From positions 1,116,001 through 1,180,000 of the forward strand of contig OY821751.1 of assembly GCA_963682055.1 (NCBI GenBank): a stretch of DNA of 64,000 nucleotides. The letters are read 5' to 3'. The DNA is from Primula veris. Its lineage: Eukaryota > Streptophyta > Magnoliopsida > Ericales > Primulaceae. Within the stretch, counting starts at the first letter, position 1; every line of letters begins with the position of its first letter. Position numbers and translations under genes: made by a program. Under the pieces are notes generated by a model. The model worked only from the letters and a program-made list of their open reading frames with translations. It was not told the origin of the DNA and did not search any database. This document shows, piece after piece, positions 24,018 through 59,908 of the stretch.

Positions 24018-24581
24018 ATGCAACCTATCGACAGTAGCGAATTTCATAATCAAGTTTCTTCTTACCCAAACATGTATAATGGTTATCCACCTTGTCTTGG
24101 CTTTTCTCAAAACAATGCACGTAGTCCCGTTTACAACTTACAAAACAACCCTCAGATGCAAGATTTTAACGCACGAAGGGCGTCGTTTAGCAGTAACAAC
24201 TCAACGTCAGATGAAGCAGATGAGCAGCAAATAGATATAATCAACGAGAGAAAGCAAAGGAGAATGATATCCAACCGGGAATCTGCACGCAGATCACGTA
24301 TGCGTAAGCAAAAACACCTCGACGAGCTTTGGTCACAAGTTCTTTGGCTCAGAAATGAAAACCATCATTTATTGAATAGGTTGAATAATTTATCAGAATC
24401 TCATGATAAGGCGGTTCAAGAGAATGTTCAGCTTAAGGAAGAGTCTTCCGAGCTTCGCCAGGTCATAACCAATATGCAGCTCAGTAGCCCTTTGCCTTTT
24501 CTAAGAGATTTGGATGATATAAACTGTGACATGGCATATCTCAGAACTGAATCTTCAAACCAGTCCGATACAAGTCCTTAA
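24018..24581 (+). CDS. Intronless bZIP transcription factor, group S (bZIP43-like)
   Basis: A 187-residue protein read from the first ATG after the TATA box. Residues about 78-100 form the basic region with RMISNRESARRSRMRKQKHL, which has the invariant N-x7-R DNA-contact pattern, and a leucine zipper follows (LDELWSQVLWLRNEN, LLNRLNNL, further heptads to about 145). The flanks are low-complexity, rich in N, S and Q. Small size, no intron and a basic region near the middle are typical of plant group S bZIPs, and the WSQVLWLRNENH segment recalls the bZIP42/43/48 branch. Group S factors bind ACGT-core elements as dimers in the nucleus. The sucrose-control upstream reading frame of group S1 is not seen; the leader is too short for it. 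No paralogue lies nearby. Confidence 0.9.
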   Translation: MQPIDSSEFHNQVSSYPNMYNGYPPCLGFSQNNARSPVYNLQNNPQMQDFNARRASFSSNNSTSDEADEQQIDIINERKQRRMISNRESARRSRMRKQKHLDELWSQVLWLRNENHHLLNRLNNLSESHDKAVQENVQLKEESSELRQVITNMQLSSPLPFLRDLDDINCDMAYLRTESSNQSDTSP

Positions 24582-26034: not shown

Positions 26035-26599
26035 TGATAGAACATAAAAATCAGACCCGAATATTTTTCGGGTCATAATCAACTCACTTTATAAATGGGT
26101 ATCCAACGCTTAATGGGTCATCTCATATTGGTTATAGGAATTGAGGTGCTACTACCCAAAGCCCAAGCCCAATCAAATGGGGACCCTTGTCTGAGAAATC
26201 CCTGGGATGAAGACATTTGTCACTATCCTAGAAGGCGCAGTTGCCTATAAATAGCCCACTACCCCTCCTAGAAAAGGACCAGAAAATCTATCCAAAAAAT
26301 ATAGAGAGAAGTTAAGAAAAGAGAGAAACTAACCAAAGCATATCACATCGAGAAACAAACCGAGAAAAGACAGCCGAGCACCGAATAAAAGAGGAGAAAG
26401 ATCAAGACGAGAGATTAAATAGTTATATCGAGCATAATTGTAAAATCGGAATACGAATCCGAACAAGTGTAGTAGTCCGAACAAGGATAATAATCCGAGC
26501 AATAATAAAGATCAGGAAGTATCATTTATTCACGTCGATTTGTCATTTTTATCTTCGTTGAAAAGCCTAACGCGACCGACCAAAGTTATGGCTTTATCA
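26035..26599 (+). repeat. 5' LTR of the gypsy element
   Basis: Begins TGATAGAACAT and ends GCTTTATCA. It contains GCCTATAAATAGCCC near 26247, a TATA box that should start the genomic transcript. It differs from the 3' LTR at two places seen by eye: ATTTGTCACT versus ATTTGCCACT, and CGAGCATAAT versus CGAGTATAAT. Confidence 0.95.
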
Positions 26600-26678: not shown

Positions 26679-27290
26679 ATGGTTACCAATGAAGAGGAAA
26701 CCCATCCCGAGATAGTAGAAACCAATAACCAAAACACGCAAATTAGCCAACAAGACCTCGACGATCTACTCGCTATCCGCGACAGATATGAAGCTATCCA
26801 ATCCGGAAACCAACCAACAACCTCCTACGCAAACCAAGAACAGCCGATCGAACCACCTCGACATTTCATCGAAGGGATTGTCGACGAACACATTTCGTCC
26901 TCGGAGGACGAACAAGACGTGCCCGTATTAAGGCGTGCACGAAGACGCTTAACCGGGTCCCAAGCAGGGCCAAGCCCTAGAGTCCCTTTGCCCACGACCT
27001 CGGTCAACTCTGGTGCCCGTTTACAAACGGACGAGGCTAATCAGTTTGGCATGCCCGAGGATCGTGTACTCGGACAGTCGCCACGACTGCCGACTAATTC
27101 TCCGAGGGTGATTACACCACCCACGGTGGAGGTACAACATGTCGTTCCCTTAGCCGATGAAAGGAACTACACACAGCTACAAGCTCAGCTGGCGGCATGC
27201 ATGACGGCCATGACAGCGGCCGGCATCGCATTGCCAGTTATCCAACCCAACAAAGACCCACGCCATGAAGGGGAAGATTCTGCCTACAGA
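26679..27290 (+). pseudogene. gag N-terminal fragment of the gypsy element
   Basis: An open frame starts at the first ATG 60 bases after the primer site and runs about 200 codons before its sequence stops looking like gag. It is hydrophilic, rich in E, Q, P and T, and reaches YTQLQAQLAACMTAMTAAG and IQPNKDP. In intact Tat elements the capsid and nucleocapsid domains, a protease and the whole reverse transcriptase would follow. Here the text passes straight into integrase in another frame, so the deletion junction lies at about 27255-27330; the frame stays open to 27368 only by chance. No CCHC knuckle is left. Confidence 0.75.
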
Positions 27291-27299
27291 GCCGCCTTG

Positions 27300-28203
27300 G
27301 AGGCAGCGGGTCGGGCCGGTATCAGCACCATGGCCGTTCGCTCAATGGGCAATCGACTTGGTCGGTAAACTCCCAAGAGCACCTGGGAATGTGGAATATC
27401 TAATCGTTGCGACTGATTATTTCACCAAATGGGTCGAAGCAAAACCCCTCCGAGAAATCAAAGCCAGCAACGTCAAACAATTCATTTGGGAATACATCAT
27501 AACCAGGTTCGGTATACCGTACGCAATAGTCGCCGACAACGGAACCCAGTTCAAAGATGCCAATTTACAGCTGTGGTACGAGGAACTCGGTATCCGAAAA
27601 TTCTATTCGACGCCGACATACCCACAAGGGAACGGGCAAGCCGAAGTGTCAAACCGAACAATATTAGACGGCATCAAGACCACCCTTGAACAAGCAAAGG
27701 GGAGGTGGCCCGAGCGGCTACTCAACGTTTTATGGTCATGCCGAACTACACCCAAGACGGGCACCAAGGAAACCCCGTTTAGCTTAGCATACGGTGTTGA
27801 GGCCATCATACCGACAGAGATCGGGCTACCCACGCTCCGAACAACGTTGGTCGAGCAGGGAAATAATGAACAAAGAATGAGAGAAGAGCTCGACATGATA
27901 GACGAGAAACGAGAGATAGCGGCCCTTACCTTAGCTAAATACCAACAAAGCATAAAGCAAACCTATGACAAGAGAGTAAAAGGGTCTAAAGAATTCATGG
28001 TAGGAGAACTGGTGCTGCGACGAGTGACGGTCTATACCCGCAACGAAATACATGGCAAACTAAGCCCTACCTGGGAAGGCCCATACGAAATCGTCAAGCA
28101 AACAAGTCCAGTCTCTTACAAAATCAAAAGCATCCTGTTCGCCAACAGCCGAGGGGAAAAGAATTCTTGGAATGTGGCTAACTTAAAGAAGTACTACGTA
28201 TAG
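27300..28203 (+). pseudogene. Integrase core and C-terminal end, truncated pol
   Basis: The frame is open to 28203 and reads as a Ty3/gypsy integrase from about 27325. The three catalytic acidic residues are visible in QWAIDLVGKLP (D), IVADNGTQF (D) and GQAEVSNRT (E). The GPY/F-type segment WEGPYEIVKQT and a terminus NVANLKKYYV are present, as in Tat-lineage pol ends. The N-terminal HHCC zinc finger, RNase H, reverse transcriptase and protease are missing. It has no start codon of its own that makes biological sense, and the upstream gag fragment is in a different frame, so an active integrase from this copy is unlikely. Confidence 0.88.
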
Positions 28204-28310
28204 GCAATCCTCCGAATACAAGTACAAGTACAGGTGCTACCTTACCCTTCTTGCTTAATGGCATTATCTTTCTTCTTTTGAATGAATAAAATATATTACT
28301 ATGCTGTCTA

Positions 28311-29443
28311 CTAATACTATGAAATTCCCAACATGGCCGAAGTGCCTAAGAAATACTATGAAATCCCATAAATGGCGTGTTACCGAAGGAACGTCTAGGG
28401 ATACTATGAAATTCCCAACATGGCCGAAGTGCCTAGGAATACTATGAAAGTCCGTAAATGGCGTGTTACCAAATGAACGTCTAGGCATACTATGAAATTC
28501 CCAACATGGCCGAAGTGCCTAGGAATACTATGAAAGTCCGTAAATGGCGTGTTACCAAATGAACGTCTAGGCATATTATGAAATTCCCAACATGGCCGAA
28601 GTGCCTAGGAATACTATGAAATTCCGTAAATGGCGTGTTACCGAAGGAACGTCTAGGGATACTATGAAATTCCCAACATGGCCGAAGTGCCTAAGAAATA
28701 CTATGAAATCCCGTAAATGGCGTGTTACCGAAGGAACGTCTAGGGATACTATGAAATTCCCAACATGGCCGAAGTGCCTAGGAATACTATGAAAGTCCGT
28801 AAATGGCGTGTTACCAAATGAACGTCTAGGCATACTATGAAATTCCCAACATGGCCGAAGTGCCTAAGAAATACTATGAAATCCCGTAAATGGCGTGTTA
28901 CCGAAGGAACGTCTAGGGATACTATGAAATTCCCAACATGGCCGAAGTGCCTAGGAATACTATGAAAGTCCGTAAATGGCGTGTTACCAAATGAACGTCT
29001 AGGCATACTATGAAATTCCCAACATGGCCGAAGTGCCTAGGAATACTATGAAAGTCCGTAAATGGCGTGTTACCAAATGAACGTCTAGGCATATTATGAA
29101 ATTCCCAACATGGCCGAAGTGCCTAGGAATACTATGAAAGTCCGTAAATGGCGTGTTACCAAATGAACGTCTAGGCATATTATGAAATTCCCAACATGGC
29201 CGAAGTGCCTAGGAATACTATGAAAGTCCGTAAATGGCGTGTTACCAAATGAACGTCTAGGCATATTATGAAATTCCCAACATGGCCGAAGTGCCTAGGA
29301 ATACTATGAAAGTCCGTAAATGGCGTGTTACCAAATGAACGTCTAGGCATACTATGAAATTCCCAACATGGCCGAAGTGCCTAGGAATACTATGAAATTC
29401 CCAACATGGCGTGTTACCGAAGGAACGCCTAGGAATACTATGA
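28311..29443. repeat. 86-base tandem repeat array, about 13 copies
   Basis: Each unit runs ACTATGAAATTCCCAACATGG...GAACGTCTAGG and is 86-87 bases. The unit is itself a diverged dimer of two halves of about 43 bases, both starting ACTATGAAA and ending in a CTAGG-like word. Copies alternate between a few sequence variants (TTACCAAATGAACG and TTACCGAAGGAACG). It lies between integrase and the antisense genes, a usual place for tandem arrays in Tat-lineage elements. The short open frames inside it are artefacts. Units are contiguous, so this is not CRISPR. Confidence 0.93.
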
Positions 29444-29741
29444 AATTTATATGCAGGTACAATGCAAGGAATTATTCAGATCCACTTTACGACGGCGATG
29501 TAATATAAATTGGCTAAAACAATGAAGGAGAATCAATCTAAACAACAAAATATCAACAAAAAGCATCTCCAAAACAGGAATAACGAAATAACAAATGATT
29601 TGGCAAGGAAAAATCGATCCGATCAATTAAATAGCAATACGGCAATGGAAAGGTACAAAACAGGAATCAAGAAATCACATATATAATCCTCGCCCGCATT
29701 ACGGAGGCAACAAGAAGATCAACGACACTAAACAGATTCAT
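29444..29741. other. Spacer between tandem array and antisense genes
   Basis: Non-coding on both strands as far as I can see. It should hold the 3' UTR and end of the minus-strand transcript. Confidence 0.4.
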
Positions 29742-30393
29742 TTAAGAAGAACTACTGCAGGAGGAGCACGACGGTAAATGACCGAGCTCAATCTCTTCGT
29801 CATCCGTCGTTGTGTACCCATCAGACTCATCACCATCAAAACGCTCCTCAGAAATGAGGGCATCAAAATTGGTCGTATGAGCCCCAACACAGGTCAGCGT
29901 CTGAAGCCGCGCGTTGAACTCGGCTTCTTTGGCGGACTCGTGAGCATCCGAGGCCGCTTTACGGCGATCATCGTCAAAAGAAAGGTCACGGCGAGCTTCA
30001 ATCACAGCGGCGGAAGCATCGTACCTGGCGCGGGACAAACGGAAATACTTCACCAAAACGTTGGCCTTGGTCACAAGCAACTTTAATTTGCCGAAGTACT
30101 CGCCCTTTGCACGCCAGTATCGATCCAAACGACGCTCCTGAACCTCAACAGCATGCTCGGCACGGCGAACGTATTCCCGAAAAGAGGCCGCCTGGGTTTT
30201 CAGCTTGGTCCGCAGTCGAACACATTGGTCAGTCAATTCGACATTTTTGCTCATCAAAACAATGTAGGGCCACCTGTCAGGCACCTCACTAGCCGCACCA
30301 GATGAGACCTCGTCCCGGGCAGCACCAGTAGGTCCTAACCCCGGGTTAACTAGGCATGGAGAACCAGCCTGGTGCGACGTAGTAGCATGTGCC
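29742..30393 (-). CDS. Antisense coiled-coil reading frame, likely 3'-terminal exon
   Basis: The minus-strand frame is open from a possible acceptor at about 30394 (a C/T-rich stretch ending TTTTTTATAG) to a stop at 29742. It has no convincing ATG near its start, so an exon spliced from upstream is more likely than a separate gene. The core SKNVELTDQCVRLRTKLKT through FNARLQTL is helical and charged, with heptad-like spacing, then comes an acidic tail (DGDESDGYTTTDDEEIELG) and a CSSCSSSS end. No known family signature beyond its resemblance to coiled-coil tails of antisense proteins in other gypsy elements. Base composition is richer in G and C than the flanking host DNA, like the other antisense frames. 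Confidence 0.55.
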
Positions 30394-30433
30394 TATAAAA
30401 AAAAAGAGGGGGGGAGAAGAACGAGAAGAGATG

Positions 30434-30470
<37 letters not shown>
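30434..30470. repeat. Poly(A) tract (poly(T) on the antisense strand)
   Basis: About 36 A in a row with few interruptions, followed by three copies of a GAAAACGACAAAACAAGATACAAA-like unit (24 bases or so, 30469-30532). On the minus strand this is a poly(T) run between the stop of one coiled-coil frame and the acceptor-like start of the next. Confidence 0.85.
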
Positions 30471-30541
30471 AAACGACAAAACAAGATACAAAGAAAACGA
30501 CAAAACAAGATACAAAGAAAACGACAAAACAAGCTATTTTA

Positions 30542-31207
30542 TTAATCCGACAACCCCTCAACAGACGCCGAAGTCTCTACTACATCGGCAAAATGAATAT
30601 CTCGCAATGAATTAATTTGCGTCCCCAAACGCTCACGAATGACCGCCTCGATTCGGTTCAAGGCAACAGTGGTTTCAGTCACCCCGGCCTCCGCATCCAC
30701 CATGCGCTCCGCCCGGGACACACCACTCATTCCTTTTATATGCTCCAGCACCTCTAAGGCGCGAGCTCGGGCCCAATACGCTTTGGCGAAGGATAGCAGC
30801 AGATCCGCGTCCTCGAAAACAGCCCCAAGGACCAAGCTCAAGCTCGTCACACGACCTCGGGCTTCATCACGAGAACGTCGTAGGGCACTGAGAAGTTCCT
30901 TTGCTTTACCCTTATTTGCCGTATAATGGGCAGTCTTTTTACTAAATTTCTCTCCCAAATCACGTAACCGGATCGCCAGGTTGGAAAAATGAATATTCAG
31001 ACCCTCGATTTCCTGATAGGCACAAGTCAATTTCGCGGTAAGGGACGCGTTAGACCTTTCCAAATCCTCCATTACGTCACCTACACTACGACTAGGCGAG
31101 GTCCAGACCACCATGGCAAGGGGGTTATTTGGTACCTGACAATATTTTGTTTTCATATCCTTCAAAATATGACGACCATCAAAAGAAATTAACCCAAGCA
31201 AGCCCAA
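30542..31207 (-). CDS. Antisense coiled-coil reading frame
   Basis: The minus strand is open over 221 codons. An acceptor-like ATTGTCAG lies just before VPNNPLAMVVWTSP, so either the frame starts at the upstream ATG (31207) or, as I think more likely, it is an exon joined to an upstream part. The protein is mainly helical: RSVGDVMEDLERSNASLTAK, AYQEIEGLN, KAKELLSALRRSRDEARGR, and VTETTVALNRIEAVIRERLG, ending SVEGLSD. No catalytic motif is visible. It lies between two poly(T) tracts (minus strand) and has the same orientation and composition as its neighbours. Function unknown; oligomerisation through the coiled coil is the most that can be inferred. Confidence 0.55.
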   Translation of the reverse strand: MGLLGLISFDGRHILKDMKTKYCQVPNNPLAMVVWTSPSRSVGDVMEDLERSNASLTAKLTCAYQEIEGLNIHFSNLAIRLRDLGEKFSKKTAHYTANKGKAKELLSALRRSRDEARGRVTSLSLVLGAVFEDADLLLSFAKAYWARARALEVLEHIKGMSGVSRAERMVDAEAGVTETTVALNRIEAVIRERLGTQINSLRDIHFADVVETSASVEGLSD

Positions 31208-31273
31208 CAGAAAGAAACCACAACACCTATATTATCACTTCCCCAAAAGAATCTGTTTCTAGATACCACCAAA

Positions 31274-31277
31274 AAAA

Positions 31278-31321
<44 letters not shown>
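31274..31321. repeat. Poly(A) tract (poly(T) on the antisense strand)
   Basis: Nearly 45 A with one short interruption at the left. On the minus strand it is a poly(T) run immediately downstream of the stop codon of the five-exon gene and upstream of the next coiled-coil frame. Confidence 0.85.
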
Positions 31322-31325
<4 letters not shown>

Positions 31326-31343
31326 ACAATGCCAGAAAGATAG

Positions 31344-33306
31344 TCAAGGTTCCACCTGAGGAGATGTTGGTGGGGGAACAACAGTAGAATCCGGTCGAGG
31401 AGTGGACGCGGTCGACATAGAATGCGGACGCAGCGCTGTCGAAATGGTCTGCCCCGGTAGCCGCGGAAGCTCTTCTTCACGAAGATTCGCCCAGTCCAAG
31501 GGTTTCGGCGGTGCACCATGCGGACACGGATACACCAACTCCGACCACGCCCTATCCGACAGAGGAACATTCGCGAAATTGAGCGCCCGCACATGAGCGC
31601 AGTATACAGAAAAGTTGGCCATCATCGCTAACTTTTTCCGCTCCTCCGCCTGTGCCGTTTTCAGGGCAGACACCTTAGCCTTCTCGGCTTCCACGTCCTC
31701 AGCCAGGAGCAAGTTCTCCTCCTCTACTTCGCCGTACTTAGCGGCCATGCTCTCTTTTTCCACCCTCAATTTCTCGACCTCCTCGGTCAGGTGCAGGAAG
31801 TCCACCGACAGTTTGTCATAATTCTCGCCCAGGGTTTTCTTCTCGGCGACCAATTTCTCCTTCTCAGCCACAAGATTATCCTTCTCGGCCACCAACTTCT
31901 CTTTCTCAGCCCCTAGAGCTCCCAGTTGATCCCGTAGCGCCACGGCACTCACAGCAATCTGCACTTCAACACATTAGTTTCCACATAAAATACAAGTACC
32001 AAACCTATATAGTGCAATACGAGCCCCACATACCCTCAGCGCATCTGCGTGGGTCTGCTCTATAACTGACATAGTAGGTTGGGCAGATAGCTTTTCTGCA
32101 TTCTTAAACACAAGGGGTTTCAGAGCCGTATACCCCATCTTCAGCGTTCTCGGTTGATCCAGCAGTTCACCCCTACATCGGTCAATGTACCGGGTCATTG
32201 CAACCCCGTCCACCAACCCCTTCTCGGATCCGTCGAGAGTCTCACCCTCGACACCCATCACATCATCCCCGGCATTCTCTTCGCCGCCTTCCATCTCCAC
32301 CCCCACGTCCTCCTCCAACTGCTCAATCTCAGGGGCCCTATGCCCGATCACTTCCTCATTACGGAGGGGCGAGCACACGGACAACTCTATCGGACCCTCG
32401 GTGGGGATAGGCGAGATAACCGGCAAAGTCATCGTACCCTCTCCCATATTCGTCAAGAGGTTCATATATCCGAATACATCGTCGACCGACCCCTGAAACA
32501 CAATAATACCCATAGACCGGGCAAGAGCGAGGGTAACCAATTGAGAAGTCAGTAGCTGAAACAAGACGACTAATAAAGCAAAGCACTAGCGAACCAAATG
32601 ACAAACAACCAAATGACAAGAAAATCATACTACATATACACATACCTCGCCCGGAGCAGAGGCATCCTCGGCGGTATCCCCTTGCGCAGCGGCAAACACC
32701 CCCTCGCCAGAGCCAACGTCAGCATCTTCCTCGGTAACCGAAGTATCAGTTCCCCTAGCCCTCTTCGTTGCTTCAACAACAGGGTCAGCTGCGCGACGCT
32801 TAGAACGAACGGCTCTTTTCCCAAGCCGCGTAGCACATCGAGCCTGAACCACCTTTAAAAGAACGAGGCCACCCAATTTGTAAAAGGCAGTCGAAGACCC
32901 CCAGTAAAGAATGCCGACGAACGCACAGCTACCTCGCCGGCAGGAACAAATCCCAGCACCTCCTCGTCCGAAATAGGAAGCCGAATATGTACGTTGTCGG
33001 GTATTCCGGCGAGTTCTTTAAAATCCTTCTCCACGAATGTGCCAACTTGGGCCACGCTTTGGGTCAAAATTTCCTATACAAAGATCATCAACAGTCCATC
33101 AATATACTAACCAAATACACACACCAGAACCACATCAATAGAACGAGAGCCACCCCCCCCCCCATGCACATTATATCAGAATCATCAGACATATATAGCT
33201 AACCTGAACCATATACCAACGACACACCTATGACCGCAACGACAAATCAAATACAACTCTTAAAAGAGGGAAAGGGGGAGAACGGAAAATCACTTACAGT
33301 TATCAT
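31344..33306 (-). CDS. Five-exon antisense gene inside the gypsy element, 476-residue coiled-coil protein
   Basis: Minus-strand exons 33306-33298, 33073-32933, 32852-32646, 32492-32034 and 31958-31344 have GT-AG borders, and every intron is phase 0. The first exon is only ATG plus two codons before GTAAGT. The predicted protein has an acidic N-terminal part (RLPISDEEVLGFVPAGE), a basic nuclear-signal-like stretch (LGKRAVRSKRRAA), a long acidic middle (EQLEEDVGVEMEGGEENAGD), then a coiled coil (EKEKLVAEKDNLVAEKEK with seven-residue periodicity) and a proline-rich tail. Intron 2, if retained, reads SAFFTGGLRLPFTNWVASFF, which resembles the start of the plant putative-gypsy-type transposon domain (PF04195); that likeness is from memory. 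Antisense genes are known in Tat-lineage elements such as Grande. Splicing is inferred, function unknown. Confidence 0.62.
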
Positions 33307-34005
33307 TATGAGCAAGCAAGCGCGAACAGCAGCAAGTCTTCCAACAAAAACACGAAACCCTAGATCAAGCGGCCGAACTCTTTTCCTTTTTGGCGGGAAG
33401 AATATGCTTTAGAGAGAGAGATATTTTCTTCAGCGAATTTTGTGATAAAAATAAACAGGACTACTTGGCACAATAAAAAGGAGTGGAGTCACAAAAGGAA
33501 TAAAATAATAACCGTCCTTTCGTGTACCAGAGGTTTCCCTTTTTTTCCAACCATACAAAAGTCAACAACCGCTGCTCTTTTTCATATTTCAACGCTCCAG
33601 ATTTCGCCACGTCAGCGCATATCCCACTACCCAAGGCAGTTCCATCATTACACCTAAATAAACGGCCAGTGGACCCTACCACGAAAAGCTTCCCATATAC
33701 GCTACCAATTTTATCACACCAAGAATGTCCCCCGATAAAGTTCCTCGACTCCCAACCATTTCTTACCCAAATGGCATACCGAACAAGGTGCACGGAGACC
33801 GTTTCTAGCTTGATGACAGGGAGCATCAAGTCTAACAACGCTCTCCGGGGGGATAACCGGGCATATTGTTCGATGTATGCTCAGAAAAAAAAAGAGAGAA
33901 GCAAGCAGGAAATAAAATAGGACAGAATCAAATGCAAGGCAAGTTTTATTCATCCACAAAGGGGGAAACACAAACAATACAACAGAAAAAGAAAATACAC
34001 ACATC
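33307..34005. other. Leader of the five-exon antisense gene and spacer
   Basis: On the minus strand 33420-33307 reads like a plant leader (CTCTCTCTCT, then CTAGGGTTTCGTG) before the start codon. The rest (33440-34005) has short open frames on both strands with no family signature; I do not call a gene there. Confidence 0.4.
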
Positions 34006-34368
34006 CTACTTTTTCGAACTATCCCCCATAGCAACATCCCTCTTCGCCAAAAGTTCCTCCAGACGCTCCTTCTCCCTAATCAAACGAGAAATCGCCATCT
34101 CAGCCTGTTTCAAGGCGTAAGACTGAGACTCGCATTTTTGCTCGGCCTTGAAACGAGCAGTGCCCTCCTCGTCCCAATATTGTTTAAACCTCCTCGCTTC
34201 AGTCCGAGCACACATGAGATCATGTTTCAGCCATGACATCTCAATTTTTTTTAGTTGAAGAGGAGTCAAATCCTCCTCCCCAAAGCCAGGGGGACGGGGT
34301 AGCAAAAAGGTAGGCTCCTCTTCCATAAGGGCTTTCTTTTTGGAGGCAGACCTAGTGATGGGAGCCAT
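34006..34368 (-). CDS. Antisense small coiled-coil gene E
   Basis: A 120-residue protein starting MAPITRSASKKKALMEEEP, then PRPPGFGEEDLTPLQLKK, then a helical stretch with many charged residues (ARTEARRFKQYWDEEGTARF, MAISRLIREKERLEELLAK). The start codon is the first ATG after a minus-strand TATA box (CTATAAATGCTCCC, 34444-34437) 69 bases upstream. The short basic N-terminus could be a nuclear signal. No known domain is recognised. It is the largest-spacing neighbour of the five-exon gene and the first of five similar small genes between here and the 3' LTR. Confidence 0.6.
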   Translation of the reverse strand: MAPITRSASKKKALMEEEPTFLLPRPPGFGEEDLTPLQLKKIEMSWLKHDLMCARTEARRFKQYWDEEGTARFKAEQKCESQSYALKQAEMAISRLIREKERLEELLAKRDVAMGDSSKK

Positions 34369-34436
34369 CTCACGCAAAAGCAAATTATAAAACAAGAAGA
34401 GGTAGAAATTGATAATGAGATACACGCAATAGGGAG

Positions 34437-34444
34437 CATTTATA
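34437..34444 (-). promoter_or_regulatory. TATA box of antisense gene E
   Basis: Minus-strand TATAAATG within CTCTATAAATGCTCCC, 69 bases before the start codon. Confidence 0.55.
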
Positions 34445-34588
34445 GAGAATCAGAAGGCACAAAATACGAAGCGTTACAATGGTTCACAAGACAGGCACGA
34501 GATACGAAAAGATACAACTGATTCATCAAATACAGAAGGTAAAACACAAATGGCAAAAGGGGAAATACATAAGAAAAACCAGCCCAAT

Positions 34589-35068
34589 CTAAGGAACAAT
34601 GGGTGGAAAAACCGAACTGCCAGACCGAGAGAAGGCAATACGAGCAGAACAATTCAACCTAGCTTGATAGGAATCGTTCATGGCGACCAAATCGTCATTC
34701 TCCGAGGAGAGCCTATTGTTTTCCGTAGTAAGAACCCTGACGCGTTCCACGAGCCGAGCATTCTTTATCATTATGTTAGCAAGGCCTTGAGGAGAGTTGT
34801 CAAACTCATCTTGAGAATGGTCCCAAATTTCCTCGGCATCATACCAGGAGTTGGCCAGATGGTTTCTCTGCAGCAACAAGTGATCGAGCTGGCGACTCAG
34901 TGCCGAAATCTCGGTCCACTTCACTGTCTCTTCGGGATAAGAGCCGAACAAGCTCAAGGCCAAAGCGCCATACTCTTTCTCAAGCCTTGCCATCCGACTG
35001 CGGACCCGAGATACCTCAGTATCCAAGCCCTTCATCTGAGCATGATATCTCACCACAGGTCCAGACAT
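34589..35068 (-). CDS. Antisense small coiled-coil gene D
   Basis: A 159-residue protein beginning MSGPVVRYHAQMKGLDTEVS. Two helical regions are seen, VSRVRSRMARLEKEYGALAL and LVERVRVLTTENNRLSSEND, with a W/D-rich link (NSWYDAEEIWDHSQDEFD). The last segment has the N and L spacing of a leucine-zipper-like coil. The start shares MSGP with gene C, and both have a YR/Y-H-x-helix layout and similar leaders (TTTCCC-AGATGTCTGG), so they are probably paralogues. A TATA-like box lies 89 bases upstream. Function unknown. Confidence 0.62.
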   Translation of the reverse strand: MSGPVVRYHAQMKGLDTEVSRVRSRMARLEKEYGALALSLFGSYPEETVKWTEISALSRQLDHLLLQRNHLANSWYDAEEIWDHSQDEFDNSPQGLANIMIKNARLVERVRVLTTENNRLSSENDDLVAMNDSYQARLNCSARIAFSRSGSSVFPPIVP

Positions 35069-35156
35069 TCTGGGAAATTGTTTAGTATGGAAGAAAATAA
35101 AGGGCTAAGGAAGAGAGAAGCAGAAAGCGCCTGATAAACTACCCAAGAAAAGAGGG

Positions 35157-35164
35157 TACTTATA
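35157..35164 (-). promoter_or_regulatory. TATA-like box of antisense gene D
   Basis: Minus-strand TATAAGTA within TTCTATAAGTACCCTC, 89 bases before the start codon. It departs from the plant consensus at one base. Confidence 0.45.
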
Positions 35165-36156
35165 GAACGAAGAGTATGATATTTTATGACCTTGCTTGGG
35201 AAATTGCATATTTCCTGACATGCTGGTGGGGGGCATGTGCATTTCCTGACCTACTAGGGAGCCTGCACATATGTTTGACAGTGATGGGGACATCTATTGA
35301 CATCTGAGACTACAGTGCAGAAGAAATAAAGACGAGATATTCAAAGATCTAGATTCCAGACAAACAACAAACCACAGGTACAATATAAAAAGAAAGGCAA
35401 AAAGAAAAGGGCAAAAATACTTTTCATTAATGAAGATGGAATACATCATTGTTCATTACATCAAAAGACAATATTACATCGTGGTCAATTACATCCGAGA
35501 TAAAAACCTATTACATCCGAAAAAATCTATTACATCCAAGAAGAGCTAGTACAGAAGATCAGGCAAAGGATCAACTATGCCAGCTGACCAAGTGAACAGG
35601 AGACGCCAAAAAGAAAAAGTAAGAAGAAAGAGAAAGGAAAAGCAAGAAGAGGAAAAGAAGAAGAGTGCAAGAAACGAAGGAAAGAAGCATAAAAAGAAAA
35701 CAAAAAGGGAAGAAAGAAGCGAAGAGGAGGAACATAAAGAAGAAGGGATAAGAAAGAAGAGTCAAAAAGAAAAATGACAAAAACCCTAGATGTAACACAA
35801 AACCCTTAGGATCACAGGGCTGATTGTAACATCGTAGTGGTGCAAAAAAGAAGAAAAAGAAAAAGAGTGATGGGAGAGAAGATGAAGAAAAAGAAAGAGG
35901 AGGCACAGAAGAAAAACAAGATGAGAAGAAGATAAAGAGACGAAGGAGACCGACAAATAAGAAGGAAGTCAATGAAACAAAAAAGAAACGGAAAAAGAAA
36001 AGAATAAAAAGTACAAGAAAACAGAGTATAAAAAGAAAACACGAAAGAGGAAGAGGAAAAAATGATGGAAACGGAGAAAATACAAAAGAAGAAAAAAGAA
36101 GAGATAGGAAAAGAAGGGGAAAGAGCAGGGAAAAACAAAAAAAAGAAGGGGGAAGG
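35165..36156. other. Strand-asymmetric purine-rich spacer
   Basis: From about 35577 to 36160 the plus strand is almost entirely A and G (AAGAAGAGGAAAAGAAG-type text), so the minus strand is C/T-rich. Frames on both strands stay open only because of this bias. 35165-35576 includes three near-repeats of ATTACATC. I do not call a gene. Confidence 0.7.
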
Positions 36157-36450
36157 TTAGGGGGAAGTCGATCGGTATCGATGAGAGGGCCCGGCAGAGA
36201 CATCCCTGTCCCTCAGTGTCGGGTTCCCCCTTAGCATCTCATTCTCTTCGACTAGAGCCTGACGAGCACGTCGGCAATAATCCAGTTCGGATCTTAGCCA
36301 AGTTAATTCCCGAACCATCTCGGTATGGTGATAACGCATCACCTTCAATTCCTCCTCGGCATCCCTCAACAGCCTTTGTACATGGTTATAGGAGGCTTCA
36401 AAGGCCTCCACTTGCAAAGCTAATGCTGATTGGGTGAAAGGACCAGACAT
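36157..36450 (-). CDS. Antisense small coiled-coil gene C
   Basis: A 97-residue protein beginning MSGPFTQSALALQVEAFEAS. A single helix-forming stretch, HVQRLLRDAEEELKVMRYHH then ELTWLRSELDYCRRARQALV, covers most of the length and has heptad-type leucines. The tail, GNPTLRDRDVSAGPSHRYRS, is polar. The consensus-like TATA box CTATAAATACC lies 85 bases upstream on the minus strand. An upstream in-frame ATG (36522) would add 24 residues but falls nearer the TATA box; I prefer the MSGP start because gene D begins the same way. Function unknown. Confidence 0.62.
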   Translation of the reverse strand: MSGPFTQSALALQVEAFEASYNHVQRLLRDAEEELKVMRYHHTEMVRELTWLRSELDYCRRARQALVEENEMLRGNPTLRDRDVSAGPSHRYRSTSP

Positions 36451-36534
36451 CTTAGGGAAATTATAAGATGAGGGTCTATATATGGAGGAAAATAATATGT
36501 TGAGAAGTGTGGATGAAACCATGCTGTAAGCAGG

Positions 36535-36542
36535 TATTTATA
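36535..36542 (-). promoter_or_regulatory. TATA box of antisense gene C
   Basis: Minus-strand TATAAATA within GATCTATAAATACCTG, a perfect plant consensus, 85 bases before the start codon. Confidence 0.6.
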
Positions 36543-37084
36543 GATCAACTGTATGAGGACTGGGATTGAGAGTCGCAACCATTCGCCAATGGGTATTCAG
36601 AAGCGATGGCACTCAAAAGAGGTGACTGTTCAAGAAAAACGTTTGGATTCCCAAAAGATTCTAAAGAGCGTGAGTAATTAAAAGCCACACCTGTTCAAGA
36701 AACGCTTGGATTCTTACCAATATTTAAAGGGGGTAAGTAATAATGGCAACAAAACACGCGTCATTTTTGGGAAGGACAGCGGATCGAATAAATATCCCAG
36801 ATCTTTTGCGCAAGGCTCAAGAAAACTCTGGTGGATAGGATTTTCTATGCACAAGGCTCAAGAAATCCTATTAGTCCCTAGATGTAAAGAGTAAGAAGGT
36901 CCAATGGATAAGATCAAACGCAAGACCCAAGAAAAGCATTAATGAGGCCACAAGCGTGCGCAGTCAAAATAAATCGCATTGGGAAAGTAATTCAGATATA
37001 AACAAGAAAAAGAAATCTTTATTGATTGGTTGATACTTCGTTACAGAAGAAGCACAAAGAGGAAATACAATGAAAACAATAAAA
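36543..37084. other. Spacer between antisense genes C and B
   Basis: Contains two copies of a CTGTTCAAGAAA-ACG-TTGGATTC phrase (about 36627 and 36693) and three of CAAGGCTCAAGAAA or CAAGACCCAAGAAA (36811, 36852, 36921). These could be promoter repeats of gene C. No gene seen. Confidence 0.45.
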
Positions 37085-37423
37085 TCATTTCATAGAAGGG
37101 CCCGCTTCATCATTCGGCTTCCTTTTCGACCGAGCATACACTTCCTTAAGGGCCAACTTGTAAGCCCTCTTGGAAGCGAGCTGCCTATCTCTGGAGGCCT
37201 CGAGCTCTTTGATCCGGGCACGAGCACGGATACTGTCAAGCAAAGACCTCTGGTGCTCCTTCTCTAGGGCATCCAATCGCTCGTCTAGTTCGGCGGCCCG
37301 ACGAGCTTCCACTGACAGCCGGGCAACCCTCTTCTCGAGATAACGCACCTTCTGAACTTCCTCTTCCAGACGGGAAACGTATTCAGGAAGGTTGTCACCA
37401 TACTTTTCAAGAGGAGAAGCCAT
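37085..37423 (-). CDS. Antisense small coiled-coil gene B
   Basis: A 112-residue protein beginning MASPLEKYGDNLPEYVSRLE. Nearly all of it is predicted coiled coil (VQKVRYLEKRVARLSVEAR, AAELDERLDALEKEHQRSL). The C-terminal part KRAYKLALKEVYARSK is almost the same as KRAYKLAFKELHARSK of gene A, and both start MAS and have Y(V/I)S(R/Y)LE near residue 15, so A and B are duplicates. A strong minus-strand TATA box (TTATAAAAGGGG) is 50 bases upstream. The start chosen is the first ATG after that box that matches gene A in layout. Function unknown. Confidence 0.65.
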   Translation of the reverse strand: MASPLEKYGDNLPEYVSRLEEEVQKVRYLEKRVARLSVEARRAAELDERLDALEKEHQRSLLDSIRARARIKELEASRDRQLASKRAYKLALKEVYARSKRKPNDEAGPSMK

Positions 37424-37472
37424 TTGCTCGTTAATAAAGAATGAACTGCATAAAAGATACTGGGACAGTCCC

Positions 37473-37480
37473 CTTTTATA
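37473..37480 (-). promoter_or_regulatory. TATA box of antisense gene B
   Basis: Minus-strand TATAAAAG within TTCTTATAAAAGGGGAC, 50 bases before the start codon. Confidence 0.6.
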
Positions 37481-37726
37481 AGAAGAAACAAGGAGTAGAT
37501 CAAAGGTCATCTCGAATAAATACAGCCTCTTGAACTTCCCAAGAGCATTAAAGGCAAATTAACCACAGTTCCAAATCCAATTAAAGTCATCCAAAAAGAC
37601 ATCAAGAAGATAAACAGACAAGAACAAGGAAAAGGAAATATTTTATTAATTCCAAAAACTTCGATTACAACTGAGGAGAAGACTCCCCATCCAAGAGAAA
37701 TTACGACAGAAATTACAAAAGACTAA

Positions 37727-38047
37727 TTATTTCGAGGAAGAGCCTTCTTCATCGTCATCCGAACTCGGTTTGGACCGAGCGTGCAACTCCTTGAAGGCAA
37801 GCTTATAGGCCCTTTTAGCCGCCTTCTGCTTAGCCAGATTAGCCTCGAGCTTCTTTATGTGCTCATAGGCCCAATCCCGATCGGCCATCGTCACATGATG
37901 ATCAGAATCCATGTCAGACAACCTTTTCTTGTAGTTTGAAACCTTGGCCACGAGTTTCTTATTCGCGGTACGAGATTTCTTGATTTCCGTTTCTAAATAT
38001 GAAATATAATTAAAGGAGCTCTCACCAGTAGAACCAGAAGAAGCCAT
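37727..38047 (-). CDS. Antisense small coiled-coil gene A
   Basis: A 106-residue protein beginning MASSGSTGESSFNYISYLET. It is lysine-rich and helical (KKSRTANKKLVAKVSNYKKR, HIKKLEANLAKQKAAKRAY) and ends with an acidic, serine-rich tail (SSDDDEEGSSSK). It is a clear paralogue of gene B through KRAYKLA-KE--ARSK. The TATA box TATAAAG lies 54 bases upstream on the minus strand. It is the antisense gene nearest to the 3' LTR, about 240 bases away, so its promoter sits next to the LTR. Function unknown. Confidence 0.65.
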   Translation of the reverse strand: MASSGSTGESSFNYISYLETEIKKSRTANKKLVAKVSNYKKRLSDMDSDHHVTMADRDWAYEHIKKLEANLAKQKAAKRAYKLAFKELHARSKPSSDDDEEGSSSK

Positions 38048-38100
38048 TATGTCAAGGGCAAATTAGTAGTAAAATGCCTAATTATGGAGGGAGCACACCC

Positions 38101-38107
38101 CTTTATA
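38101..38107 (-). promoter_or_regulatory. TATA box of antisense gene A
   Basis: Minus-strand TATAAAG within CTCCTATAAAGGGGTG, 54 bases before the start codon. Confidence 0.6.
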
Positions 38108-38290
38108 GGAGTTTTCCTCGAAAAAAGATACTAGGATAGGAAACATTAAATGTGCCCCCCTGGGAACCGTCACGAGTCTATTGCGTTTCTCGATGAAGCA
38201 TTGGGAAAAATAAGACCGAAGTAACGTTCTCGACAAACCGAACATGACTCCCCCGACATGGAAACCACGCCGAGGAAGTCAGGGAGCACT

Positions 38291-38855
38291 TGATAGAACA
38301 TAAAAATCAGACCCGAATATTTTTCGGGTCATAATCAACTCACTTTATAAATGGGTATCCAACGCTTAATGGGTCATCTCATATTGGTTATAGGAATTGA
38401 GGTGCTACTACCCAAAGCCCAAGCCCAATCAAATGGGGACCCTTGTCTGAGAAATCCCTGGGATGAAGACATTTGCCACTATCCTAGAAGGCGCAGTTGC
38501 CTATAAATAGCCCACTACCCCTCCTAGAAAAGGACCAGAAAATCTATCCAAAAAATATAGAGAGAAGTTAAGAAAAGAGAGAAACTAACCAAAGCATATC
38601 ACATCGAGAAACAAACCGAGAAAAGACAGCCGAGCACCGAATAAAAGAGGAGAAAGATCAAGACGAGAGATTAAATAGTTATATCGAGTATAATTGTAAA
38701 ATCGGAATACGAATCCGAACAAGTGTAGTAGTCCGAACAAGGATAATAATCCGAGCAATAATAAAGATCAGGAAGTATCATTTATTCACGTCGATTTGTC
38801 ATTTTTATCTTCGTTGAAAAGCCTAACGCGACCGACCAAAGTTATGGCTTTATCA
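38291..38855 (+). repeat. 3' LTR of the gypsy element
   Basis: Starts TGATAGAACAT and ends CTTTATCA, the same length as the 5' copy. A purine-rich stretch, GAGGAAGTCAGGGAGC, lies just before it and may be the polypurine tract. It is followed by the target duplication AAAAG. Confidence 0.95.
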
Positions 38856-50552: not shown

Positions 50553-50884
50553 TTTCATTAAGTTTAACATGATGTAAAATACTTATGTTAAATTGTTTGC
50601 GATTGATAAGTTAGTGTTTTCGTTAGTACCGCATCTTATAACTCGTACACATGCACACATCTTGCAACTTAATCTTGCAACTTAATACTGATATTGGCAT
50701 GTATGGTTCAAACTTCTTCTCATGAAACACTCATTTCTATACTATTATTATTAAGCTCTATTTGCATGCCTACACATTCTCATACATATTTTTTTTTCTA
50801 AGAACATTAAAACTAAAATTTTCTAAATTTTACATCTTGTTTATATTAATGAGGTATATGTATCTTATTTATGTTTATAAATTT

Positions 50885-52104
50885 TGAAATTCCTATCCGC
50901 TGTTCTAGATGCAGTTTTGCAGTAAGGTTTCAAGTGAGGTTGCAACCACAGTTGGAACCAAGTGTATTAATGGACAGAACTGTATAAAGTTAAATGTACT
51001 TGAAATCATTCACACGCACATTTAACAACGGAGTTCACCTAACTAGGCTATGTCTCCGGGGCACTTACCCAGATTATGATATTATAAAAAGCTTACAATA
51101 TAGGATTCAAGTCTTAATGGAAAACTCTCAGACTCCCTCTAGGTTTTTCTGTCTATCTCTATATTGCTCTACTTTCATAACTATCAATTATAAAATCAAT
51201 GTCATCCCACCATTGTTTTCTTTTGAAAGCTCTTTGTGTATTCTCTCTAGAATGAGTTATTTATAATTTAGAACACACACTTTTACAAGCTAAAGTTACC
51301 AAGTATATAAGCAAGCAAAAACAATCTTCTATCTTCAATATCTTTTGATTGCTTTTGACTTTGTTGATTGGCTTCAATCTTTCCAAGCATTACGTGATTC
51401 TTCAGCGTGGATTGACTCCAATCATCATTGGTTAATACCTGTTTAGTAACAAGCTTGAAAGTAGCAGTTAGTCTTTCCCTTTGAAAGGAAACATATAAAG
51501 ATAATATATTTTAAAGATAATATCTTTTCATAAACATATGAAACATTCAACTCCATATAACAATCAATCTTTAAACGTATCTTTACTGAATATGATAAGG
51601 ACCAAAGATTGAAACACGTGATAAGGACAAGCATAAGAGTAGAGATACATATTAAAGGAAACATAACCTTATAAACTAATCTCTTTATATCTTTTAGAAA
51701 GCATCTTTCCTTAATACTTTGATATTCTCAATTTACGCATATTAAACATTTAATATCATATGAGAATATATCCTGCATACTGTAGAACAAATAATAATCA
51801 ATAAAGAACAGTTATGCAGATTTACAGAACTAGACAGAATACTGCTAAACAGCAGGTTGGAACTGTGGTTGCAACTGAGGTTGCAACTGGTACTTGAAAC
51901 CTAACACTACTGACTTAGTAGATTGTAACTGAGGTTGCAACATTGCTTGAAACCTAACACTACTATCTTAGTAGGTTGTAACTGAGGTTGCAACATTGTT
52001 TGAAACCTGTCAACACTGTCTTAGTTCTTTGCAAACAGTTAGGATAATTTAGTGAAAACCAATAGACAACAATTAAACTTTAGACCAGAAATCTGGTCCT
52101 AACA
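50885..52104 (-). repeat. 3' LTR of the SIRE-type element
   Basis: On the plus strand it opens TGAAATTCCTATCCGCTG and closes GGTCCTAACA. It contains several GTTGCAAC words (near 50937, 51860-51890, 51930, 51985) and, compared with the other LTR, an extra 16 bases (TTTTAAAGATAATATC repeated at 51500-51530). Confidence 0.95.
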
Positions 52105-52118
52105 ATCTCCTCCTTTGT
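52105..52118 (-). promoter_or_regulatory. Polypurine tract
   Basis: On the minus strand ACAAAGGAGGAGAT directly precedes the 3' LTR, the usual copia layout. A second look-alike, GACAAATAGGGGGAGTG, lies at 52469-52486. Confidence 0.75.
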
Positions 52119-58702: not shown

Positions 58703-58704
58703 AT

Positions 58705-59908
58705 TGAAATTCTTATCCGCTGTTCTAGATGCAGTTTTGCAGTATGGTTCCAAGTGAGGTTGCAACCACAGTTGGAACCAAGTGTATTAATGGACAAAAT
58801 TGTATAAAGTTAAATGTACTTGAAATAATTCACACGCACATTTAACAACGGAGTTCACCTAACTAGGCTACGTCTCCGGGGCACTTACCCAGATTATGAT
58901 ATTATAAAAAGCTTACAATATAGGATTCAAGTCTTAATGAAAAACTCTCATACTCCCTCTAGGTTTTTCTGCCTATCTCTATATTGCTCCTACTTTCATA
59001 ACTATCAATTATAAATCAATGGCATCCCACCATTATTTTCTTTTGAAAGCTCTTTGTGTATTCTCTCTAGAATGAGTTCTTTATAATTTAGAACACACAC
59101 TTGTACATGCTAAAGTTACCAAGTATATAAGTAAGCAAAAACAATCTTCTATCTTCAATATCTTTTGATTGCTTTTGACTTTGTTGATTGGCTTCAATCT
59201 TTCCAAGCATTACGTGATTCTTCAGCGTGGATTGACTCCAATCATCATTGGCTAATACCTGTTTAGTAACAAGCTTGAAAGTAGGAGTTAGTCTTTCCCT
59301 TTGAAAAGAAACATATAAAGATAATATCTTTTCATAAACATATGAAACATTCAACTCCATATAACAATCAATCTTTAAACGTATATTTACTGAATATGAT
59401 AAGGACCAAAGATTGAAACACGTGATAAGGACAAGCATAAGAGTAGAGATACATATTAAAGGAAACATAACCTTATAAACTAATCTCTTTATATCTTTTA
59501 GAAAACATCTTTCCTTAACACTTTGATATTCTCAATTTACGCATATTAAACCTTTAATATCATATGAGAATATATCCTGCATACTGTAGAACAAATAATA
59601 ATCAATAAAGAACAGTTATGTAGATTTACAGAACTAGACAGAATACTGCTGAACAGCAGGTTGGAACTGTGGTTGCAATTGAGGTTGTAACTGGTACTTG
59701 AAACCTAACACTACTGACTTAGTAGGTTGTAACTGAGGTTGCAACATTGCTTGAAACCTAACACTACTGTCTTAGTAGGTTGTAACTGAGGTTGCAACAT
59801 TGCTTGAAAGCTGTCAACACTGTCTTAGTTCTTTACAAACAGTTAGGATAATTTAGTAAAAACCAATAGACAACAATTAAACTTTAGACCAGAAATCTGG
59901 TCCTAACA
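58705..59908 (-). repeat. 5' LTR of the SIRE-type element
   Basis: Plus-strand text opens TGAAATTCTTATCCGCTG and closes GGTCCTAACA; 1204 bases. An open frame in it (59088-59468 minus) has a counterpart in the other LTR and is not a gene. Confidence 0.95.

Follow-up and report, generated by a model that had tools for sequence, protein, structure and literature searches.

An antisense row of small predicted genes, kept open across copies, in a Primula veris retrotransposon

The DNA analysed here, referred to as the window, is a 64,000-nt stretch of the Primula veris genome (assembly GCA_963682055.1, contig OY821751.1, positions 1,116,001 to 1,180,000 of the forward strand) that contains a gypsy-type long terminal repeat (LTR) retrotransposon. 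Between the integrase and the 3' LTR of this element lies an antisense cassette of five single-exon genes (g3 to g7, 97-159 aa), one multi-exon gene and two further open frames (g1 and g2). Every frame that passed our coding tests between 29742 and 38047 is on the minus strand, and the products of g3 to g7 are rich in helix formers, three of them being basic (isoelectric point, pI, 8.9-9.6). A preliminary description of the window had reported such a cassette and had seen nothing like gag, pol or env among its frames; our results agree on both counts. The single-exon genes and the two further frames, in window coordinates, are:

29742..30392, minus strand: g1, open frame, possibly an exon whose 3' splice site is near 30394; product charged and helical; first of six frames in the codon model
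30542..31135, minus strand: g2, open frame; charged helical protein; first of six frames in the codon model
34006..34368, minus strand: g3, single-exon gene, 120 aa, basic; intact in copies
34589..35068, minus strand: g4, single-exon gene, 159 aa, three predicted helices; intact in copies; 78% identical full-length relative (P0003)
36157..36450, minus strand: g5, single-exon gene, 97 aa; intact in copies
37085..37423, minus strand: g6, single-exon gene, 112 aa, pI 9.6, paralogue of g7; one difference from database protein P0001
37727..38047, minus strand: g7, single-exon gene, 106 aa, pI 9.4, paralogue of g6; intact in copies

Long open frames are more numerous on this strand than resampling predicts. 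From 33.4 to 38.29 kb the minus strand holds eight ATG-initiated frames of at least 95 aa, versus 0.68 expected from Markov resampling in 500-nt blocks, and none of 2,000 resamplings reached five. Three of the eight (33461-33826, 33714-34037 and 35571-36203) scored low in the codon model and were not counted as genes. This model was trained on g1, g4 and g6, the frames with database homologues, and it placed ten cassette frames at ranks 1 to 10 of 40 stop-free stretches (at least 90 codons, both strands); seven of the ten do not overlap the training genes. Since gag ranked 16th and the integrase 21st, the model measures likeness to the cassette, in codons and amino acids, and not coding capacity as such. 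Chance open frames were rejected on the resampling excess, the codon-model ranks and the intactness across copies described below. For g5 and g6, whose longest ATG frames are 121 and 141 aa, we placed the start at the earliest in-frame ATG that follows the predicted transcription start, which gives 97 and 112 aa; the start chosen for g6 is also that of P0001. After g5, at 35571-36212, lies a long low-complexity stretch that is pyrimidine-rich on the minus strand. Its 210-aa ATG frame is among the lowest-scoring in the codon model, and the alignments of several copies break in this stretch.

A search of the window's genome assembly (436.5 Mb) with g4 returned 1,722 first-look candidates. The 150 best-scoring of these were scored as g4 copies, and each is at least 96% identical and stop-free. 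Twenty copies were taken from the 150, spread down the list, and a second set comprised 20 further copies from the 30 closest; intactness was counted only where a copy covered at least 95% of a frame. In the first set, g3 was intact in 19/20 copies, g4, g5 and g6 in 20/20 each and g7 in all 19 full-length copies (the 20th is partial there), with ATG and stop codon kept. The frame of g2 was open in 17 of 18 copies, and that of g1 in each of the three copies, out of 20, that cover it. The second set gave similar counts for g3 (18/19) and g4 (20/20). Two control frames from the same DNA, on the sense strand at 33504 and on the antisense strand at 33461, were open in 1/18 and 1/19 copies of the first set, respectively.

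The substitutions among copies also follow the reading frames. Pooled over g3 to g7, variants shared by at least three sequences comprise 17 nonsynonymous (N) and 37 synonymous (S) changes, a per-opportunity N/S of 0.16 (0.19 with a stronger transition bias). Singleton variants gave 0.37-0.45, the same shared variants read in the two shifted frames gave 1.76-2.83, and shared variants in g2 gave 0.29-0.34. For these ratios the copies were projected on the window's codons, so that frame-shifted copies were still counted in the window's frame outside the indel. Counted in the same projection, the shared variants of nine segments (65 N, 96 S) were more constrained than the singletons (144 N, 121 S; Fisher P 0.007), the pattern to be expected where selection works on the lineage that transposes and its copies drift afterwards. 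An excess of third-position changes was seen for g3 to g7 pooled, and across 19-20 copies the five coding regions accumulated two indels in total, versus 1, 12, 21 and 66 in the four intergenic stretches. Taken together, the g3 to g7 frames are under purifying selection across copies. Disruption of the frames at the neutral rate in other copies, one of the outcomes that the preliminary description had named as fatal to its proposal, did not occur: the frames are intact and N/S is 0.16-0.19.

These data also bear on the idea that the antisense transcripts themselves are functional, as double-stranded RNA or through transcriptional interference, the open frames being incidental. An RNA function has been proposed for such elements (PMC7264820; this and the other papers cited are drawn on in extract), and the opposite-strand promoters predicted below would face the LTR-driven transcript. 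It does not explain, however, why N/S falls to 0.16-0.19 in one frame only, nor why the coding regions hold so few of the indels, and we regard it as quite improbable.

Each of g3 to g7 is preceded by a predicted TATA box:

34438..34445, minus strand: TATA box of g3, 77 nt before the ATG; kept in 20/20 copies
35158..35165, minus strand: TATA box of g4, 97 nt before the ATG; kept in 18/20 copies
36536..36543, minus strand: TATA box of g5, 93 nt before the ATG; kept in 19/20 copies
37474..37481, minus strand: TATA box of g6, 58 nt before the ATG; kept in 19/20 copies
38101..38108, minus strand: TATA box of g7, 61 nt before the ATG; kept in 19/20 copies

On the minus strand of 29.5-38.29 kb there are five matches to the pattern YTATAARD, one ahead of each of these genes. 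A looser set (TATAAA, TATAAG or TATATA; 11 hits) covers all five genes in one of 300,000 random placements. Three of the four AATAAA sites, at 33950, 37023 and 37647, fall 56-80 nt after g3, g6 and g7, an arrangement matched by 35 of 300,000 random placements, and these three are kept in 20/20, 20/20 and 19/20 copies, respectively; the fourth overlaps the end of g2. Homology of the upstream regions among all genes was considered and rejected, the only hints being weak ones for g4-g5 (P 0.06) and g6-g7 (P 0.05).

The multi-exon gene of the cassette lies between g2 and g3 and is represented in the window by the following exons:

33298..33306, minus strand: predicted first exon (ATG ATA ACT), from the splice model only
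32646..33073, minus strand: main exon, interrupted by a 478-bp frame-shifting deletion at about 32858-32860
32034..32555, minus strand: penultimate exon, open in 17/17 copies; acceptor and donor at its ends kept in 17/17 placed copies
31344..31958, minus strand: last exon with a KEKLVAEK coiled-coil region, open in 17/17 copies

The preliminary description had read this as a five-exon gene, and such a model is mechanically possible in the window copy (four GT-AG introns, phase 0, 494 aa). A multi-exon gene is indeed present. For the two introns tested after the main exon, GT and AG are kept in the 16-17 copies where they could be placed. Intron 2 of the model was rejected, as copy-by-copy comparison identified it as the edge of the 478-bp deletion. 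Both sides of the main-exon span could be located in 16/20 copies; the span measures 906 bp in 15 of them and 905 bp in one, versus 428 bp in the window copy, and is open throughout in 13 of the 16. In the intactness count of the first set, the main exon was open in 15/16 copies. The claim that all the antisense frames have stayed open in the window copy thus fails for this gene, which the deletion has broken there. In four copies (L036, L038, L047 and L048) the main exon could not be placed on both sides, and most of g3 to g7 is kept in them.

In copy L033, the main exon has a single Pfam match, to Transposase_28 (PF04195; E-value 0.013, 16.2 bits versus a cut-off of 26.2, profile positions 3-58 of 69), and a Pfam scan of the window copy's main-exon remnant gave no match. 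The multi-exon gene next to the five small genes is likely of a known kind, and we refer to it as Transposase_28-like. About 80 nt before its predicted start, at 33389-33399, stands TTTGGCGGGAA, an 11-mer present once in 26.0-38.9 kb, which resembles a canonical E2F site. Two A tracts on the plus strand adjoin cassette genes, one of 52 nt after the Transposase_28-like gene (31271-31322) and one of 40 nt after g2 (30434-30473); the latter could act as a pyrimidine tract ahead of g1.

The element that carries the cassette is laid out as follows:

26035..26599, plus strand: 5' LTR, 565 bp, TGATA...TATCA, with the target-site duplication AAAAG directly before it
26679..27314, plus strand: gag N-terminal remnant, stopping at an internal deletion, as judged by comparison with copy L051
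27316..28203, plus strand: integrase core and C-terminus to the stop codon, 99.4% identical over 888 bp in L051
28314..29447, no strand assigned: 86-bp tandem repeat array, 13.2 copies
38291..38855, plus strand: 3' LTR, with AAAAG directly after it

With two mismatches between LTRs of 565 bp each and the 5-bp AAAAG on both flanks, the insertion is young and target-duplicated, as had been described before. What is left on the sense strand is the beginning of gag plus the core and C-terminal end of the integrase (Pfam rve within 27214-28200, E-value 2.5 × 10−10). The region from pol to the 3' LTR (28204-38290) spans 10,087 bp, including the 1.1-kb tandem array.

The preliminary description had suggested that the element line may be kept for its antisense genes, given that the sense strand has lost its enzymes. 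This argument lapses, because the loss is local to the window copy. The pol side of the L033 copy, which we call L051 and which is the one copy examined in this respect, has an LTR, gag and an open pol beside the same cassette. Its gag consists of two stop-free stretches of 279 and 440 codons, implying an in-frame stop, and its pol is an open 1,268-codon stretch encoding protease, reverse transcriptase (305-464), RNase H (528-655), a second RNase H (RVT_3, 697-815) and integrase (Integrase_H2C2, 904-961; rve, 980-1076). Compared with L051, about 4.4 kb are missing from the interior of the window copy: the two sides of the deletion junction lie that far apart in L051, and the lost part comprises the rest of gag, the protease, reverse transcriptase, RNase H and the N-terminus of the integrase. 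In Ogre and Retand elements, RNase H is followed by a second one (aRH) and then by integrase (PMC6317226), and this mark of the Ogre/Retand branch of the Tat clade is present in L051; no chromodomain was found among the Pfam matches of L051 pol at an E-value of 0.01. Judged by this domain order, the element is a high-copy Ty3/gypsy element of the Tat clade. It likely belongs to the Retand lineage, where the pol-3'LTR region is unusually long and often holds tandem arrays, both of which are found in the window element.

As the cassette consists of self-contained transcription units next to the 3' LTR, the stretch at 33.4-38.3 kb could be a separate mobile element nested in the retrotransposon. 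We rejected this very improbable alternative, as the stretch is not bounded by a pair of terminal inverted repeats: nine inverted pairs were detected (20-32 nt, 72-83%), and they are scattered. In addition, the aligned block reaches the edge of the 3' LTR in 19 of 20 copies. Outside the retrotransposon, an open bZIP gene frame at 24018-24581 (Pfam bZIP_1, E-value 3.6 × 10−13) ends about 1.45 kb before the insertion, and two 1.2-kb blocks (50884-52105 and 58704-59909) are 95.8% alike.

Protein-database searches covered g1, g4 and g6 among the seven single frames and found four proteins, each on one ENA contig; as the database holds predicted open frames, broken copies are less visible in it. 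The relative of g6, P0001, differs at one of 112 positions (99% identity), that of g1, P0004, is 97% identical, and g4 has relatives of 95% and 78% identity. The latter, P0003, comes from a 693-bp ENA/MGnify contig and has 35 substitutions relative to g4, with no gap, no stop and the same length, which suggests a second, diverged lineage of g4. A neutral-drift test on this pair alone was weak, giving a no-stop probability of 0.19-0.21, a conservative-change P of 0.06-0.11 and a joint value of 0.013-0.03. Scans of viral contigs with the integrase, g4, the g4 alignment and the g6/g7 alignment found no relatives, nor did scans of bacterial and archaeal contigs with g4 and g1, of plasmids with g1, or of phages with the cassette DNA.

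Within the cassette, g6 and g7 are 40% identical (E-value 1 × 10−17), and since their 3' flanks are also alike (P 0.002), the whole unit was probably duplicated. Their dN/dS is near saturation, with values of 0.24 (NG86) and 0.66 (YN00), and third-position changes exceed those of a simulated control (P 0.01; 2/200). This duplication would also suit an origin as host or viral genes, either captured or acquired independently, that came in together as one block and have since been passengers. Each unit resembles a complete host-style gene, and multiple sources for extra open reading frames (ORFs) have been suggested (PMC6317226). Conversely, no Pfam family reached its cut-off for any of the five genes, and selection on the shared variants indicates that they matter to the element now. 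The homologues seen are either near-identical or 78% alike. Acquisition as a passive block is, in our view, improbable.

The preliminary description had called all cassette products coiled-coil proteins. This label draws on their composition and on low-to-middling structure models: g4 is modelled as three helices with a mean predicted local distance difference test (pLDDT) score of 70, and the g1 model is poor (pLDDT 54). Pfam matches of g3 to g7 to bZIP, filament and other coiled-coil families were all below cut-off (g4 to bZIP_1, 19.1 bits versus 27.6) and were rejected. So was the best fold match of g4 in the PDB, to the Mical bMERB domain, as not significant.

The main rival explanation concerns what such proteins do: they may be structural, as coiled-coil parts of a virus-like particle or of intracellular transport, and not regulators. 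The virion-associated protein of caulimoviruses is comparable to the cassette proteins in size and helicity. Five small proteins rich in helix formers, three basic and several alike, would suit a multi-part assembly. Separate antisense promoters fit poorly with this, as such proteins would be needed together with gag, and the viral fold library, searched with g4 only, returned nothing better than an E-value of 0.04. The product of gene23, a related type on record, is, moreover, reported to be nuclear (PMC7264820). We consider a structural role unlikely, albeit worth keeping in sight.

The explanation that we favour, and hold to be reasonably probable, is that this Tat-clade element, likely of the Retand lineage, carries an antisense Transposase_28-like gene together with five selected single-exon genes that have predicted TATA promoters of their own and likely encode coiled-coil accessory proteins. 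Each of g3 to g7 would be a separately transcribed accessory gene with a TATA box, a short leader and an intact frame; three of them also have a poly(A) signal. Minus-strand transcripts would start about 25-35 nt past each TATA box, near 38075, 37450, 36510, 35135 and 34415 for g7 down to g3, and run towards pol, and those of g3, g6 and g7 would end after AATAAA. In the nucleus, the helical products may form oligomers, among themselves or with the Transposase_28-like protein, and could there tune the element's transcription or the handling of its complementary DNA and so help control its spread. Acting in trans, they would still be supplied by a gag-pol-deleted copy such as that in the window, and with promoters of their own they could, like the products of retroviral accessory genes, be made even when the LTR promoter is off. 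This proposed role draws by analogy on gene23, which is reported to be nuclear and to have its own promoter (PMC7264820).

Several observations weigh against this explanation. The copies were picked by their match to g4, a choice that favours g4 itself and leaves out old copies. The weaker sense-strand controls were often open in the first set (32091 in 13/17 copies; 34550, opposite g4, in 3/18), and in the second, closest set 34550 was open in 12/19 copies, the other two controls being open in 1/19 each. Part of the contrast between genes and controls is due to the youth of the copies, which is in part why two controls are weaker. Taken alone, g3 has two N and two S shared variants and no third-position excess, and total substitution rates overlap between the five coding regions (0.009-0.019 per site) and the stretches between them (0.017-0.034). 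As to the promoters, the YTATAARD pattern was composed after the sites had been seen, the upstream regions are not clearly alike between genes (ten pairs, P 0.05-0.97), and no AATAAA lies within 120 nt after g4 or g5 in any of the 20 copies. The fold search with g4 gave best E-values of 0.055 (PDB) and 0.04 (viral library), and the accessory role is for this reason a guess.

Carried to its end, the argument from youth would make the frames chance products or relics that are open merely because the copies are recent. The LTRs differ at 2/565 positions, identity within the aligned blocks of the retrieved copies is mostly 94-99%, and two of the four controls are open in many copies. Against this, the other two controls are broken in 17/18 and 18/19 copies, g3 to g7 pooled show in-frame constraint and a third-position excess, and the 78% relative of g4 has kept its length without a gap. 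Youth as the whole explanation is therefore scarcely credible.

A bolder extension of the favoured explanation, which we offer tentatively and consider somewhat doubtful, is that this element line has six or more antisense accessory genes, a set resembling that of retroviruses. The five separately promoted coiled-coil proteins would form one hetero-oligomeric regulator with the Transposase_28-like protein, and such cassettes would be widespread in Tat elements, hidden by cut-offs of 600 bp or 250 codons. In the window element, the region from pol to the 3' LTR has grown to about 10 kb and holds five further genes under selection. The element is present in many copies, and gag and an open pol persist in at least one other of them. 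It offers many natural replicates and short single-exon proteins that are easy to express, and it can put to a clear test the idea that plant retrotransposons, like complex retroviruses, have sets of accessory genes.

Antisense extra genes have been described in plant retrotransposons since the 1990s, usually as one or two in an element, and no function has been assigned to them, according to papers cited in PMC7264820. Extra ORFs occur in most elements of the OTA superclade (Ogre, Tat, Athila), and Transposase_28 in 23% of Retand elements (Neumann 2019, PMC6317226). That survey counted ORFs of at least 250 codons, and none of g3 to g7 is that long. The closest known system is that of Retand elements with antisense TRP28 (Transposase_28, PF04195) genes, the TRP28 domain being found in 97% of clusters (Vicient 2025, PMC11963269). 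Like the window element, these are non-chromovirus Gypsy elements with a long pol-3'LTR region, tandem repeats in it and an antisense gene, of TRP28 type in their case and Transposase_28-like here, and some clusters are without parts of gag or pol, as is the window copy. Their pol-3'LTR regions measure 2.9-6.6 kb, with 104 antisense ORFs of at least 600 bp in 63 clusters (about 1.7 each), whereas the region described here is about 10.1 kb long and has five extra antisense genes of 97-159 aa, all under that survey's cut-off; the similarity to TRP28 is here below the Pfam cut-off. Small genes of this kind may thus have escaped published surveys that set a minimum ORF size.

Two single-gene systems are also comparable. 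Grande gene23 of maize is antisense, lies between pol and the 3' LTR, and is reported to be transcribed from a promoter in its own upstream region and to have a nuclear product (PMC7264820); it is one gene, whereas here a row of five has separate predicted TATA boxes. HBZ of human T-cell leukaemia virus type 1 is an antisense-coded leucine-zipper protein that acts on its element's own transcription, again a single gene, with a TATA-less promoter in the 3' LTR (PMC10186651). The TATA promoters predicted here lie inside the element and outside the LTR, and no bZIP match above the cut-off was found in g3 to g7. A literature search over titles and abstract openings found no description of a multi-gene antisense cassette of small genes. 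Within the literature drawn on here, antisense Transposase_28 genes are already known in Retand elements, and the additional row of five small genes is the new part.

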